Notes under the pieces: generated by a model
What the model saw: only the letters and a program-made list of their open reading frames with translations
Told to the model about the DNA's origin: nothing
Databases searched by the model: none
NCBI GenBank assembly: GCA_903830655.1
Contig: CAIKUQ010000068.1
Coordinates: 1-64,000, forward strand
Source of the DNA: an uncultured Actinomycetes bacterium
GTDB lineage: Bacteria > Actinomycetota > Acidimicrobiia > Acidimicrobiales > RAAP-2
Direction: 5' to 3'
DNA: 64,000 bases
In this document: positions 19,302-25,786 of the stretch, in pieces
Layout of the letters: each line of letters opens with the position of its first letter
Numbering within the stretch: the first letter of the stretch is position 1
Translations under genes and position numbers: made by a program

Positions 19302-20288
19302 TTGGGCTTGCCCATCGCCCTTGACGTCATGGGCGGCGACTTTGCTCCCAATGAAATAGTCGCTGGCGCCCGACGTGCCCGAGAAGAACTCGGCCTCGAA
19401 GCAATTCTCGTGGGCGTACCTGAACGCATGGGGGACACCTCCGGTTTTGAAGTGTTCGCCTGCACCGAAGTCATCGAGATGGATGACGATCCCGGTACCT
19501 CGGTACGGAAGAAAAAAGACTCCTCACTGGTACGGGCCGCCGAACTAGTTCGTGACGGCAAGGCCAGCGCGATGGTTTCGGCGGGTAACACCGGGGCGAC
19601 CATGGCTTCGGCCCTACTGCGCATGGGACGGCTACCCGGAGTAATCCGACCCTGTATCGTCACTCCAATTCCTAATCCGGGCACCAACCCAACTGCGCTG
19701 GTCGACGCTGGTGCTAACTCTGAGTGCACCCCAGAGATGCTCGTCCAATTTGCCAAATTGGCGAGCGCCTACATGAACGCCAGGCATAATCTCAGCTCAC
19801 CCAAGGTAGGCCTGCTCTCGATCGGCGAGGAGTCCTCTAAAGGAACGCCGCTGGTAAAAGAGACGCATGAACTCTTGGCGAACGACTCGACGCTCAATTT
19901 CTTTGGCAACGTGGAGGGGCGAGATTTAATCCCTTCACCCGTGGACGTAATTGTCACCGACGGTTTCACCGGCAACGTAGCGCTTAAGACGCTGGAGGGA
20001 TCGATGAAATTCATTTTCACCGAGATTCTTAGAGCCGTAGGAACCGACGCCGATACGAAGAAGGCCGGCGAGACTTTGGCTCCGCACTTAGTGCCCATCA
20101 TGGACATGCTCACCCCGGAAAATCAAGGTGGAGCGATGCTGCTCGGTCTCGAGGGAATTTGCATTATTTCTCACGGTTCCTCCAACGCCACGGCGATCAT
20201 GAACGCCATGCGCGTGGCGAACGAGATGGACAAATCGGGAGTGGTCAATAAAATGCGATTGGCCATTCGTCCTGATCAACAGGGCTAA
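19302..20288 (+). CDS. plsX: Phosphate acyltransferase PlsX
   Basis: PlsX makes acyl-phosphate from acyl-ACP for phospholipid synthesis. The 328-residue product has the signature IALDVMGGDFAPNEIV at the N terminus, SAGNTGATMASAL in the middle and VTDGFTGNVALKTLEG near residue 220. The N terminus requires a TTG start at 19302 (or TTG 19308), as no ATG/GTG fits before the conserved region. The start is three bases after the rpmF stop and ten bases from AGAGG. Confidence 0.95.
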   Translation: MGLPIALDVMGGDFAPNEIVAGARRAREELGLEAILVGVPERMGDTSGFEVFACTEVIEMDDDPGTSVRKKKDSSLVRAAELVRDGKASAMVSAGNTGATMASALLRMGRLPGVIRPCIVTPIPNPGTNPTALVDAGANSECTPEMLVQFAKLASAYMNARHNLSSPKVGLLSIGEESSKGTPLVKETHELLANDSTLNFFGNVEGRDLIPSPVDVIVTDGFTGNVALKTLEGSMKFIFTEILRAVGTDADTKKAGETLAPHLVPIMDMLTPENQGGAMLLGLEGICIISHGSSNATAIMNAMRVANEMDKSGVVNKMRLAIRPDQQG

Positions 20289-20314
20289 ACCTGCAGCCTC
20301 CACCAGTTTCAAAC

Positions 20315-20320
20315 TAGACT
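20315..20320 (+). promoter_or_regulatory. -10 box before acpP
   Basis: TAGACT lies 25 bases before ATG 20346, leaving room for the GAGGAG ribosome-binding site at 20334-20339. So this would give a conventional leadered mRNA for acyl carrier protein. No clear -35 is seen. Confidence 0.4.
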
Positions 20321-20345
20321 GGACCCTACAACCGAGGAGAGAAGT

Positions 20346-20618
20346 ATGACTGATTCACCGCTATCTCGTGACGCCGTAACCGAACTCGTCAAGACCCAAC
20401 TAGCCGAAATTCTCGAAAAGTCTCCCAGCGATATCGCCACTTCAGCGTCATTTGCCGAACTGGGCGCCGACTCGCTGTCTCTCATAGAGCTCATCGAAGC
20501 CATCGAAGAGAAGATCACCCCACTGGTGGGGGAATTTCACATCAATGACGAAGACCTCGCAGGCCTGACCACCGTTCAAGAGGCCGTTGACTACGTAACG
20601 GCCAAGCTGGCCGCGTAG
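20346..20618 (+). CDS. acpP: Acyl carrier protein
   Basis: A 90-residue acidic ACP carrying growing acyl chains in fatty acid synthesis. The 4'-phosphopantetheine attachment site is the Ser in ELGADSLSLIELIEAIEE (near residue 45). Acidic helix II and the VGEFHINDEDLAGLTTVQ third-helix region fit the family. GAGGAG precedes ATG 20346. plsX upstream and rnc downstream form the classic lipid/RNase III cluster. Confidence 0.95.
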   Translation: MTDSPLSRDAVTELVKTQLAEILEKSPSDIATSASFAELGADSLSLIELIEAIEEKITPLVGEFHINDEDLAGLTTVQEAVDYVTAKLAA

Positions 20619-20624
20619 GAGTCT

Positions 20625-21314
20625 GTGGTCCTTCTGACCGTGTCAAACACCGAGTTGAGCGCTCGACTGGGAGTTAGCACCGAGAGTGAGATGCTCTTGG
20701 TCGCTTTGACCCACTCGAGTTACGCCAAAGAGCACCACGCGACTTCCAACGAGCGGTTGGAATTCTTGGGAGACGCCATTGTCGATCTCATCGTGGCCCA
20801 ACACCTCTACAGCGCTTTTCCCACCATTGACGAGGGTGAGGCCACCATCGCGCGCTCGCAGGTAGTTAATGAAGCCGCACTCGCGCGCTTCGCCCGAGTG
20901 CTGGACCTGGGCAGCCTGCTGCGAGTGAACAAGGGAGTCGAGCGAGAGGGCGGCCGTGAGCGTGATTCAATCTTGGCCGATGCCTTTGAAGCGGTTATCG
21001 CGGCGGTGTATCTCGAGCGCGGACTCGAGCACACCACCGAGGTTCTCTTATCCCTCCTCGGTCAGGCCATCGCGGAGGCGGTGGCTCACCCCATGCACGC
21101 CGACCCCAAGGCGCAGTTGCGCAAATGGTCTGAGTCAAATGGAAAAGGCCAGCCCACCTACGAGGTAACCGCCGACGGACCAAGTCACGCGGTGCAATTC
21201 GTCGCCCAAGTCTTAATTGGTGGCGAAGTAATCGCTACCGGTCAAGGAACATCGAGAAAGAGTGCCGAGGCGCAAGCCGCGTTAACGGCATGGAATGAGA
21301 AAAGCAATGAATGA
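20625..21314 (+). CDS. rnc: Ribonuclease III
   Basis: RNase III cleaves double-stranded RNA and processes rRNA precursors. The 229-residue product starts at GTG 20625. It has the catalytic signature NERLEFLGDAIVDLIVA, the second acidic site DSILADAFEAVIAAVYLE, and a C-terminal dsRNA-binding domain (KAQLRKWSESNGKGQPTYEV, then TGQGTSRKSAEAQAA). It overlaps the following mutM-like gene by a few codons. Confidence 0.96.
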   Translation: MVLLTVSNTELSARLGVSTESEMLLVALTHSSYAKEHHATSNERLEFLGDAIVDLIVAQHLYSAFPTIDEGEATIARSQVVNEAALARFARVLDLGSLLRVNKGVEREGGRERDSILADAFEAVIAAVYLERGLEHTTEVLLSLLGQAIAEAVAHPMHADPKAQLRKWSESNGKGQPTYEVTADGPSHAVQFVAQVLIGGEVIATGQGTSRKSAEAQAALTAWNEKSNE

Positions 21315-22206
21315 AATTCCTGAAGTAGAAACAATGCGCAGCGCGCTGTCGCGAGACCTCGTTGGGCGACGCGTCAAGCTCGCCACCGTCACCGTGGGCC
21401 GGCTGGTTAAGCCTCACAAGAGCGCCAAGGAGTTTCGCACCGCGATTGAAGGACACGCCATCAAGGAGGCTCAGCGTTTAGGGCGCAACCTCGTTTTTGT
21501 CTTGGACAACGGACACCGCCTCGTTTTGAACGCTGGTTCGGGCCAAATCCTCATGGCCGCGACCGCCAAGGTGACTAAACCCAAGTTCACCCAACTGGTT
21601 ATTAGTTTCGACAAGACGGGGGAGTTGCGAGTGGTCGACCCCAAGGGTGATGCTCGCGCCTACGTCGCTAAGGCTCCGGCCGAAGGCGAGGGAGCGGAAA
21701 TCTCGAAATTCGCGCGGCTCAGTGTTGGTGGTGATGGACTCGCTCTGCGCAAAACCATCAGTGAATTGGCCGACACTGGCATTGACGCCATCGAAGACCA
21801 AATTGGCTGGGACCGCTTTGCGGCCGTCATGCGCTCGCGCACCACAGCCCTGGTAGAGGTGTTAACCGACGAGCGAATCTTTACTGGACTGGGTGATCTC
21901 TACGCCGACGAAATCTTGTTCTCCGCTGGGCTACACCCCAACCGCTCGGCGGAAAGTCTCACCACCATCGAAATTCGCCGCCTGCACCGCAGCTTCTTAG
22001 AGGTGGTCGCTGATGCGATCAAGCACGAGGGCACCACCCTGGAGGACACCCCCTGGACCGACCCCTACGGTAAGGCCGGCAGTTACCAGAAATTTCTCCA
22101 GGTCTTCAAGCGTGAGGGTTTGCCCTGCTTCCAGTGCCGCGCCCCAATTAAGCGCCTGACCAGCAAGACCCACGACACCTTCTTCTGCGAGAAGTGCCAG
22201 GCGTAA
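21307..22206 (+). CDS. MutM/Fpg-family protein lacking key catalytic residues
   Basis: The 299-residue product has the Fpg/Nei fold: N-terminal EIPEVETMR, a helix-two-turn-helix region (LGDLYADEILFSAGLHP), and a C-terminal zinc finger (CFQC...FFCEKCQA). It sits in the usual rnc-mutM-smc slot. Active Fpg begins MPELPEVE, and Pro after Met is the nucleophile; here the second residue is Asn. By eye alignment, the catalytic Lys (RRxKYL) is Arg in RLGRNL, and HLGMSG is NAGSGQ. The DPRRFG lesion-reading segment is DPKGDA, GxGN is GLGD, and the zinc-finger Arg is Asp. Starting at ATG 21295 would not supply the Pro. So it is probably not an 8-oxoG glycosylase; DNA binding may remain. Confidence 0.85.
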   Translation: MNEIPEVETMRSALSRDLVGRRVKLATVTVGRLVKPHKSAKEFRTAIEGHAIKEAQRLGRNLVFVLDNGHRLVLNAGSGQILMAATAKVTKPKFTQLVISFDKTGELRVVDPKGDARAYVAKAPAEGEGAEISKFARLSVGGDGLALRKTISELADTGIDAIEDQIGWDRFAAVMRSRTTALVEVLTDERIFTGLGDLYADEILFSAGLHPNRSAESLTTIEIRRLHRSFLEVVADAIKHEGTTLEDTPWTDPYGKAGSYQKFLQVFKREGLPCFQCRAPIKRLTSKTHDTFFCEKCQA

Positions 22207-22237: not shown

Positions 22238-25200
22238 GTGTTTCTGAAGCGATTATCCATGAAGGGCTTCAAGTCCTTTGCCGACACCACCGTGCTCGAA
22301 TTCGAGCGTGGGGTCACGGCTGTCGTGGGGCCCAACGGCTCGGGTAAATCGAATGTCGTTGACGCCGTTACTTGGGTGCTTGGTGCCCAGAGTGCGAAAT
22401 CGTTGCGTTCGGGAAAAATGGATGACGTCATCTTCAGCGGAACCTCTTCTCGCCCTGCGCTCGGTCGCGCCGAGGTGGCTCTCACCCTCGACAACGCCGA
22501 TGGCCGCCTGGGTCTAGACCACGCCGAAGTAACGATCTCTCGAACTCTGTTTCGTACCGGCGAATCCGAATACGCAATTAACGGCACGAACTGTCGACTG
22601 CTGGACATCCAAGAACTTTTAAGTGACTCGGGTGTTGGCCGTAACCAACACATGATCATTGGCCAGGGTCAACTGGATTCCATCTTGAACTCGAATCCCG
22701 AGAACCGTCGCGCAGTTATTGAAGAGGCGGCCGGCGTGCTCAAGCACCGTCGACGCAAGGAACGTGCTGAACGGCGTCTCGATCAAACCAAGGAAAACCT
22801 TGATCGATTGGGTGATCTGATTCGCGAAGTACGGCGTCAAATGCGCCCGCTCGAACGTCAAGCGGCTTCCGCCCAGAGTTTTAGCGAAGTTGACTCGCAA
22901 CTACGCGCCTCTCGTCACACGCTGTACTCGCAGAGACTAGAGGTCTTCACAACTCGCCAGAGAGAGATTGAGCACCAACTCGGTAGCTCTGCGGATACCG
23001 AAGGGAAACTGCGTGAAGAGGTCGTCACCCTCGACGCTCAGGCCCAGGCCGCCGCAGCGGAGATGGCCTCGCGTCGCGAAGAGACCCTCGCCTCGGCCCT
23101 GGGAACACTCCAAGGACTCTCAGAACGTTCTCGTGGTCTAGCGCAAGTTATTAACGAACGCGAAAAGGCCCTTCGCCAAGCACTCATTGCTTCGGCGGAC
23201 GAAAACGTCATTGCCACCTTGGAAGCGGACGCCGCGAAATTGAAGGCCGACCTGGAAGAATTAGCTATCGAAGAGCGCGATCTCGCCTCGATGCGCCAAG
23301 GAGTAACGAACGCCGTGGCGCAATTCGAAGCGGCTCTAGCCAGTTACGAAGCCACCTACGCCAACCAGTCGCTGGAGAGTGACGAAGTGGTCCTTTCCAG
23401 CATGCAGTCCCGGCTCCAACTGTTAGAGCGCTCGCTCAATTCGCTCCACGAACAACAAGAGCGGGCTAACGCACGCCTTCACGAAACTCGTGAACGCCAC
23501 GGTATTTCGGTTGATGGATTCTCGGCCGCGCAAGCCGCGCACGATCAAATTGGCACTCGACTCGAAGAGGCTGAACGCGAGGTGCGAACAGCTGAAGTCC
23601 ACTCGAGCGAAGAAGAGCACAAGCGCGAGGTGAGTGACCTCGCCCTTCGTGGGGCCACCGAAGTCGCCGCTCGCACGCAAGCTCGAGCCGAAGCGCTCGC
23701 GCGGGCCCTCGATGAATTCTCCGGCGCGGGTGGCCGCGCGATCATTGGCAACCTCGAAGGTGTGCTCGGCGCCTTCTTAGATCTCATTGACATTGACAAT
23801 GGCTGGGAGCGCGCCGTTGAATCGGCCGCGGGCGCCAGTGTTGGCGCAATGGTCGTTGACGGAAAGCAATCCGCACGCAAGGCGCTTGAAGCCCTTCGGC
23901 GTGAGGGTGGGGCTGGACTAATTCTGCCGATTAGTGAAAACGAAATTCGTGTTAGCGCCGCACCGACTGGCACCACCGCCCTGCGTGACAAAGTACGTGC
24001 TCGAACGGGCGCCCCCGCTCACGTCACCCGAGTGCTCGACGCACTCTTCGCCCGGGCTTTCGTCGCGGATAATTGGGAGGCTGGAATTGAAGTGGCCCTC
24101 GCTAACCCCGAGATGGTCGTAGTCACCACTGACGGGGACCGTTTCTCGTCGGCGGGCTGGCGGGTCGCCTCGGGTCGAGCGGTCGTAACGCGCGGAACGG
24201 TCGAAGAGGCCGAGCGGGCCGCTCGTGAGGGTGCCTCAGAATTGACTCAAGTCTCCGAGCAACGTGAACGCGATGACGTGTCAGCGGGTCAAGCTCGCTT
24301 GCGTCTAACCAACTCCCAGAATGCCCTCAACGCGGCTCGAAGTGACTTTGAGCGTAATCAATCGGCTCTCGAGCGGTATCGCTTGACGAGTCATGAATTA
24401 GGAGAGGCGATTACTCAACTCGAGTCCGAACTCGACGAAGTCGCTACTCAAATGGCCCCCATGCAGCAAGAGTTCAACTCTCTGCGCACACAACTTCCCG
24501 CCTTGGAATCGGCTGTTGCTGACGCCAGTACGCGCGCTCACGTCGCGGAGTCAGCTAAGGGGCAAGTCGAACACTTGCGCGAAAGTGCGGTCACCCAAGC
24601 GACCGGGCTCTCTCGTCGTGAAGCAGAGTTTGGCGAGCGCCGTCGCCTTATCGAAACCCGTCGCGGGGAGATTGAGTCGCGCCTCGAAGGTCGCTCCACT
24701 GAGCGTGCGGAAGCGGCCAAGCGTCGTGAAGCAATTGAGTTCGACCTATCGGCCCTCTCTCGTCTGGCTCGGATGGTCGTTACCGCCACCGAGGAGATCA
24801 AGGTCGCTCAAGGGGCCATGGACTCCACCTACCGTGAGCAGCTCGAGGCTACGCGCGCCTCAGCGGACAAACTCGAAGAGGTTCGCCGCACTCGCCACGC
24901 CACTGAGATTCGCCTCAGTGAGCTCTCCGATTCGAAGCGTAAGTTCGAAATCGAGCAAGCCGAGTTGGTCATTAAAATCGAGAACCTGCACGAAGCGATT
25001 CGCCGTGACCTCCGTGTCGAGCCCGAAGCCCTCTCACGCACTGAAGTCGAACTTCCCGAAGGCAGCACGCTGGAGCAAGTAGTCGCTGAGCTGGAAGCTC
25101 GCATCACCTCACTGGGACCAATCAACCCGTTGGCCCTCGAAGAGTTAGCCGAACTCGAAGAGCGCTATACCGAGTTGGACCGTCAGGTGAGCGATGTGCG

Positions 25201-25786
25201 GCATTCGGCGCAAGAACTGCGTGAGGTCATTCGCGCCCTGGACGACGAGATCATGCAAACCTTCACCGAGGCCTACACGGATGTGAATAATCACTTCAGC
25301 GACATCATCGGCAAGGTATTTCCTGGTGGACAGGGGCGTTTGACCTTAACTGAGCCCGAAGACCCCCTCAATACCGGAGTCGAGATTGAAGTACGCCCGA
25401 TGGGTCGAAATGTTCGCCGAATCTCGTTGCTCAGTGGTGGCGAGCGCTCAATGGCGGCCATGGCCTTTCTCTTTTCGATTTTCCGTTCGCGCCCCTCTCC
25501 CTTCTACATGATGGACGAGGTTGAAGCCGCTCTAGACGACGTGAACTTGCAACGTTTTATCGCGCTCGTCGATGAATTCCGTGAAGAGGCTCAGCTCGTT
25601 ATCGTCACTCACCAGAAGCGCACCATGGAAGCCGCCGACGCTCTCTATGGAGTCACCATGGTGCCCGGGGCCAGTTCCAAGGTAGTTACCCAGCGGGTCA
25701 AGCGCACTCCGGAAGAGAGGGAAAAGCCCGAAGAGAAGCTCATCACCGAGCGAGCCTTCACACCAAGCCCCGAGGAGGCTGAATGA
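22238..25786 (+). CDS. smc: Chromosome segregation ATPase SMC
   Basis: SMC condenses and segregates the chromosome as a ring-forming dimer with ScpA/ScpB (not in this window). The 1182-residue product has the N-terminal ATPase half with VVGPNGSGKSN at residues 30-39, and a first coiled coil. A Gly-rich hinge spans about residues 495-660 (GGRAIIGNLEGVLGAFL), followed by the returning coiled coil. The C-terminal ABC signature LLSGGERSMAAMAFL and Walker B FYMMDEVEAALDD lie near residues 1065-1095. Length and layout are standard. GTG 22238 is set by a leaderless box. Its stop overlaps ftsY by ATGA. Confidence 0.97.
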   Translation: MFLKRLSMKGFKSFADTTVLEFERGVTAVVGPNGSGKSNVVDAVTWVLGAQSAKSLRSGKMDDVIFSGTSSRPALGRAEVALTLDNADGRLGLDHAEVTISRTLFRTGESEYAINGTNCRLLDIQELLSDSGVGRNQHMIIGQGQLDSILNSNPENRRAVIEEAAGVLKHRRRKERAERRLDQTKENLDRLGDLIREVRRQMRPLERQAASAQSFSEVDSQLRASRHTLYSQRLEVFTTRQREIEHQLGSSADTEGKLREEVVTLDAQAQAAAAEMASRREETLASALGTLQGLSERSRGLAQVINEREKALRQALIASADENVIATLEADAAKLKADLEELAIEERDLASMRQGVTNAVAQFEAALASYEATYANQSLESDEVVLSSMQSRLQLLERSLNSLHEQQERANARLHETRERHGISVDGFSAAQAAHDQIGTRLEEAEREVRTAEVHSSEEEHKREVSDLALRGATEVAARTQARAEALARALDEFSGAGGRAIIGNLEGVLGAFLDLIDIDNGWERAVESAAGASVGAMVVDGKQSARKALEALRREGGAGLILPISENEIRVSAAPTGTTALRDKVRARTGAPAHVTRVLDALFARAFVADNWEAGIEVALANPEMVVVTTDGDRFSSAGWRVASGRAVVTRGTVEEAERAAREGASELTQVSEQRERDDVSAGQARLRLTNSQNALNAARSDFERNQSALERYRLTSHELGEAITQLESELDEVATQMAPMQQEFNSLRTQLPALESAVADASTRAHVAESAKGQVEHLRESAVTQATGLSRREAEFGERRRLIETRRGEIESRLEGRSTERAEAAKRREAIEFDLSALSRLARMVVTATEEIKVAQGAMDSTYREQLEATRASADKLEEVRRTRHATEIRLSELSDSKRKFEIEQAELVIKIENLHEAIRRDLRVEPEALSRTEVELPEGSTLEQVVAELEARITSLGPINPLALEELAELEERYTELDRQVSDVRHSAQELREVIRALDDEIMQTFTEAYTDVNNHFSDIIGKVFPGGQGRLTLTEPEDPLNTGVEIEVRPMGRNVRRISLLSGGERSMAAMAFLFSIFRSRPSPFYMMDEVEAALDDVNLQRFIALVDEFREEAQLVIVTHQKRTMEAADALYGVTMVPGASSKVVTQRVKRTPEEREKPEEKLITERAFTPSPEEAE

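Follow-up and report, generated by a model that had tools for sequence, protein, structure and literature searches.

MutM/Fpg is a textbook repair enzyme which has been studied almost only for its catalysis. In the Fpg of E. coli, Pro1 is described as required for activity and N168D was the most detrimental of the mutations tested, whilst minor activity remains in R108K (PMC4737139). The mycobacterial Nei2 belongs to the same superfamily and is an active AP lyase/glycosylase; both of its activities are abolished by K51A, whereas P2A removes the AP lyase and leaves the glycosylase, with the opposite outcome for E3A (PMC11323726). A degenerate Fpg-family protein is also on record from an actinobacterium, namely Fpg2 (Rv0944) of Mycobacterium tuberculosis, which occurs beside an intact Fpg1 and is reported to be truncated, without its N-terminal part (PMC2734929). 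The protein described here is likewise degenerate and actinobacterial, but it is full length, carries point replacements, occupies the ancestral locus and represents a loss that has recurred. No report of this phenomenon was found in open-licence papers.

The window, i.e., the whole stretch of DNA analysed, comprises 64,000 nucleotides of an uncultured member of the Acidimicrobiales (family RAAP-2), whose assembly amounts to 1.40 Mb and is 95% complete. Its Fpg-fold gene lies in a conserved block of genes (Table 1); 31 nt separate its end from smc, and a second in-frame ATG is found upstream of the start used here, at 21295. The encoded protein has the N-domain and H2TH domain in the order characteristic of Fpg/MutM (Pfam E-values of 1.7e-18 and 1.5e-17), with a sub-threshold match to the zinc finger and a weak match to NFACT_N (E 1.8e-4). 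Its position and its approximately 60% identity to canonical MutM proteins of the same genus identify it as an ortholog of the rnc-smc mutM. It shares with the family (TIGR00577, PF01149 plus PF06831; E. coli MutM, and mycobacterial Fpg1 encoded downstream of rnc) the fold, the domain order, the H2TH motif, the zinc cysteines, Glu3 and Glu6, and the position after rnc, but it falls below the curated cut-offs of the NCBIfam Fpg equivalogs (176.5 against 212 and 174.9 against 203.3 bits).

Table 1. Features of the rnc-smc region of the window. Residue numbers of the ancestral enzyme follow E. coli MutM, with Met as 1.
Feature	Positions	Strand	Basis or remark
plsX and acpP, 5' part of the conserved plsX-acpP-rnc-mutM-smc block	19302..20618	+	
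rnc (RNase III), 8-nt overlap with the Fpg-fold gene	20625..21314	+	
Gene at the mutM locus, predicted catalytically dead Fpg-fold protein, 299 aa	21307..22206	+	Start ATG; Pfam, NCBIfam, alignment
Codon 2, Asn for the nucleophilic Pro (P2N)	21310..21312	+	Pro in 98/98 canonical relatives
Codon 60, Arg for the catalytic/phosphate-binding Lys57	21484..21486	+	Alignment
NAGSGQ for HLGMSGQ: H71 to N75, intercalating M74 deleted (1 residue)	21529..21546	+	Alignment
KGDA for R(T)FG: intercalating R109 to K113, F111 to D115	21643..21654	+	Alignment
H2TH domain, residues 158-246	21778..22044	+	Pfam PF06831; full constraint retained in the old dead clade
Codon 197, Asp for the phosphate-binding Asn169 (GxGN to GLGD)	21895..21897	+	Alignment
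Codons 224-239, helix with R224, R225 and K239 (E. coli 196, 197 and 211)	21976..22023	+	Alignment; invariant in the old dead clade, kept in the family's dead clades
Zinc-finger region, four Cys intact, Arg259 to His289 (22171-22173)	22117..22200	+	Alignment
smc, directly 3' of the Fpg-fold gene	22238..25786	+	

Residues were called by aligning the protein with E. coli MutM and with 90 canonical relatives. The original prediction, of an Fpg-fold gene between rnc and smc with most of its catalytic and lesion-binding residues replaced, was confirmed by this alignment and by Pfam, including the individual changes at the Pro, the Lys and the three motifs (NAGSGQ, DPKGDA and GLGD) and the intact zinc cysteines, all four of which are kept. 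It erred at the zinc-finger Arg, which had been read as Asp: Arg259 aligns with His289, and Asp290 replaces the Ser that follows. The DPRTFG motif has furthermore lost its Thr (T110 to Gly). The protein has kept Glu3, which is catalytic, and Glu6, whereas it differs from MutM/Fpg at the Pro nucleophile, Lys57, His71, the intercalation triad M74/R109/F111, Asn169 and Arg259. The same residue pattern is present in two independently assembled genomes (G155 and G160, at 92% and 90% identity), and is therefore neither chance nor an assembly error. The change at Asn169 is the same as that in E. coli N168D, and the published Fpg and Nei2 mutants support inactivity; judged from this combination of residues, ordinary Fpg chemistry is very unlikely. 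Structure prediction from three sequences was poor (mean pLDDT 43.8). Many members of the family have an insertion of about 22 amino acids between the DPRTFG motif and the H2TH domain which E. coli MutM does not have; in the window it reads EGAEISKFARLSVGGDGLALR (21670-21760, residues ~122-151), and its length and sequence are conserved in the window clade.

Matches to the window protein were found in 165 of the 172 genomes of its family. Genomes in which no match was found mostly lack the start of smc as well, and these cases are therefore taken to be assembly gaps and not losses. Most of the rnc-smc copies read in the family are of the fully active type, among them the copies in the window genus mentioned above. 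Those that have lost the active site, referred to below as dead, form six separate groups (A-F), each with different replacements. The original prediction had proposed a tree of the rnc-smc homologues; in a tree of the neighbor genes plsX, acpP, rnc and smc each of the six groups is a clade nested among active ones, giving at least five changes; this count, like those for the order below, is a parsimony minimum that depends on weak branches, the trees having been made from three or four neighbor genes by a quick method, with most of the genomes compared being metagenome assemblies. Among 97 columns conserved in 90 active sequences, H71, M74, R109, T110, F111, and N169 are lost in all six dead groups and K57, K155, R259, R34, and H92 in most of them, whilst 47 of the columns are retained throughout. 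E3 and E6 are present in all six groups. Clade B keeps P2, E3, and K57, and residual activity is therefore possible there. Genomes are rather small in every dead clade of the family, with assemblies of about 1.0-2.4 Mb.

The dead proteins remain under purifying selection. By the Nei-Gojobori method, with dS near saturation in some pairs, dN/dS is 0.041-0.054 within the window clade (three species) and 0.028, 0.098, 0.036, 0.077, and 0.04-0.19 in clades B, C, D, E, and F, respectively, while 14 active pairs with usable dS gave 0.026-0.10. In most of the same pairs the dN/dS of rnc exceeds that of the gene at the mutM locus, and no internal stops were seen among the matches listed in a protein search of relatives. 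Values this low are strong evidence against both a pseudogene and a mere spacer. The relaxed selection and broken frame of a pseudogene are not seen; the combination found, of lost catalytic residues and purifying selection, is that of a pseudoenzyme.

An order-wide sample took in most of the other families, and the state of each locus was scored at seven diagnostic sites. The distribution is near bimodal: 98 loci have all seven residues and 52 have three or fewer, with one truncated copy at five and one at six; further dead copies were read in addition to these. About 23 of the order's roughly 60 families contain dead copies, some of them in large genomes such as G173 (4.6 Mb) and G342 (3.6 Mb), each a single contig. 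Genome streamlining alone was considered as the driver and rejected, as dead copies are present in genomes of at least 3.6 Mb. The tree of neighbor genes requires at least 13 changes. A protein tree in which the active-site columns were masked requires at least seven, and contains one old dead clade of ~33 sequences in addition to separate events; it was built from shortened starts, with short N-terminal extensions omitted and the first three residues masked. The old dead clade covers about 15 families and includes genomes from 3.6 to nearly 5 Mb, some of them single contigs. When the N-termini were re-read from the DNA, Pro2 was present in 98 of 98 canonical and 17 of 57 dead proteins, and Glu3 in 98 of 98 and 45 of 57; the dead N-termini include MIA-, MIE- and MRE-LPEVE and the like, and Pro2 has therefore been lost, not shifted. 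At a few loci smc has no adjoining upstream gene of the Fpg fold (L290 in G372; perhaps L287, L296, and L300), rnc and acpP lying on the opposite strand at L290, which suggests that a few lineages have undergone rearrangement or have truly lost the gene. A dead MutM with DLGESG, DPKLSG, and GLGD motifs and without the zinc-finger Arg lies beside rnc in another class of the phylum (L323; G748, family f67), and the phenomenon is therefore not confined to the order; the other mutM copies read there are active.

The original prediction had also raised the matter of a second, complete mutM, and here the answer differs between the window genome and most of the other dead-locus genomes. With the Fpg model, a second Fpg above the cut-off was found elsewhere in 31 of 48 genomes with a dead locus and in none of 32 with an intact one (Fisher p 4e-10). 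When independent contrasts on the tree are considered, about four agree with this association, none oppose it and two are undecided (sign test p 0.125); its direction is clear and its phylogenetic strength is limited. All 24 of the second copies inspected are canonical at nine of nine residues. Their sequences are of two kinds, HLGMTG/D[VI]RRFGR and HLRMTGQ/DQRKFGR, and this split suggests that no fewer than two distinct genes served as replacements. The same model found no second true Fpg in clades A, B, E, and F of the window genus, nor in the dead-locus genomes G224, G419, G447, G188, G341, and G176. The sole other Fpg/Nei-fold gene found in the window genome, P0002 (G000:C53:28980-29762), shares the Fpg N-domain and H2TH with the window protein, but is another gene at another locus and not a close relative. 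It has seven of the nine diagnostic residues, with P2, E3, the Lys, the Met, DPRRLGR, GVGN, and the zinc-finger Arg intact and the lesion-site His and Phe and some zinc ligands altered, and scores far below the Fpg cut-offs. Genes of this type are present in most genomes of the family, be the rnc-smc locus dead or active. In clades A, B, E, and F of the window genus, P0002 may cover the repair job, or the excision of 8-oxoG by the Fpg family may be reduced. The window genome also encodes a MutY-like HhH-GPD protein; most genomes of its genus (g1; in the window genome, G000:C5:79847-80452) have a single such match, as against two in most other genera of the family, and endonuclease III (Nth) may therefore have been lost in the window genus.

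The conservation of the dead proteins is uneven along their length. At matched rnc divergence (0.45-0.55), the H2TH domain of the old dead clade is as conserved as that of active proteins (0.519 vs. 0.524), whereas the N-domain of the clade is less conserved than theirs (0.410 vs. 0.521); these values, like those for the former active site and for net charge given below, come from sequences with shortened starts, the effect of which is confined to the first three residues and the omitted extensions. No residue dominates the former active site of the old dead clade except K155 (94%; Val in the window protein), and at the catalytic and intercalation positions no replacement residue reaches 55%. 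R196, R197, and K211, on the other hand, are present in 100% of the old dead clade, compared with 76, 86, and 62% of active proteins, respectively. The first two zinc cysteines of the old dead clade are often Ser (SPRS), one later Cys and the final Gln staying in place (L125, L128, L172, L183, L223, and others); zinc binding has therefore probably been lost there too.

These observations are probably best explained by a pseudoenzyme derived from MutM and retained because its H2TH half serves some role that does not depend on catalysis. The nearest competitor is that of a non-catalytic protein binding DNA through the Fpg groove, as a lesion sensor, a shield or a nucleoid protein. The retained fold, H2TH motif and window zinc finger would agree with it, as would the net charge of the window protein, which is still +5, and the frequency of K155 in the old dead clade. 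However, the set of residues lost (K57, H71, M74, R109, F111, N169, and R259) is precisely that which contacts phosphate and intercalates; mean net charge falls from 6.7 in active to 0.5 in dead proteins outside the window family and from 6.0 to 3.8 within it, and the zinc cysteines are also gone from many dead proteins of other families. Since the lost residues contact lesion DNA and positive charge declines, the DNA-binding reading is unsupported; we regard it, and canonical DNA binding by the window protein, as unlikely. The original prediction of a repurposed DNA-binding protein as opposed to decay therefore survives in part: purifying selection and the repeated parallel losses speak strongly for repurposing, whilst the DNA-binding half is not supported. 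More doubtful still is the view that the protein remains an enzyme, either changed in specificity or left with some glycosylase/AP-lyase activity, using the retained E3 or migrated residues. The presence of E3 and E6 throughout the family's six dead clades, the glycosylase activity of Nei2 P2A and the minor activity of E. coli R108K could be read in its favor, but Nei2 K51A has neither activity, N168D occurs naturally in the window, and the former active site of the old dead clade conserves nothing but K155 and has settled on no new residue.

Two further readings appear highly improbable. A gradual decay of the gene, dispensable in streamlined genomes, would suit the small genomes of the family's dead clades and the seeming absence of the gene at L290 and perhaps three other loci; it is contradicted by a dN/dS of about 0.04, by frames that are full length and uninterrupted among the matches listed, and by the old dead clade, which is spread over about 15 families and includes large genomes. 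Least credible of all is a mere translational spacer coupling rnc to smc, for although the overlap with rnc and the short distance to smc are what one might expect of it, a spacer needs no constraint on its amino acids, nor would it have to preserve 47 columns throughout the family's dead clades.

For the pseudoenzyme kept for its H2TH half, we would envisage vertical descent from the active MutM/Fpg of the rnc-smc locus. Its glycosylase/AP-lyase activity would no longer have been needed: in most lineages of the order the change is accompanied by a second canonical Fpg, and in the window genus P0002 perhaps does the work. From then on the DNA-lesion site would have been free of selection while the folded protein was not, because MutM in these bacteria has, or acquired, a function independent of catalysis. 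The most likely location of this function is the H2TH half, on the helices that carry the invariant R224, R225, and K239, where it would consist of binding a partner, be it a protein or a structured nucleic acid, and not of processing lesions. Ribosomal protein S13 and the NFACT/RqcH proteins use folds of the H2TH type to bind RNA, and in view of the weak NFACT_N match the partner might be a structured RNA; RNase III and SMC are candidates guessed at from gene order only. Whether the MutM of the order as a whole carries this second function, of enough importance to preserve the protein while about 15 families diversified, and exposed by the repeated loss of catalysis, often with a second canonical Fpg, seems to us an evenly balanced proposition; if so, it may be present in the active MutM proteins too. 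The repeated losses amount to a natural experiment in which the active site is removed and the protein kept, implying that some other property of MutM is selected, and the H2TH face would be the place to look for it.

Some of the dead rnc-smc copies score above the curated TIGR00577 cut-off, namely those of clade B (G159/G157), G176, G231, G244, G034, and G415, and would be annotated as active 8-oxoG repair.
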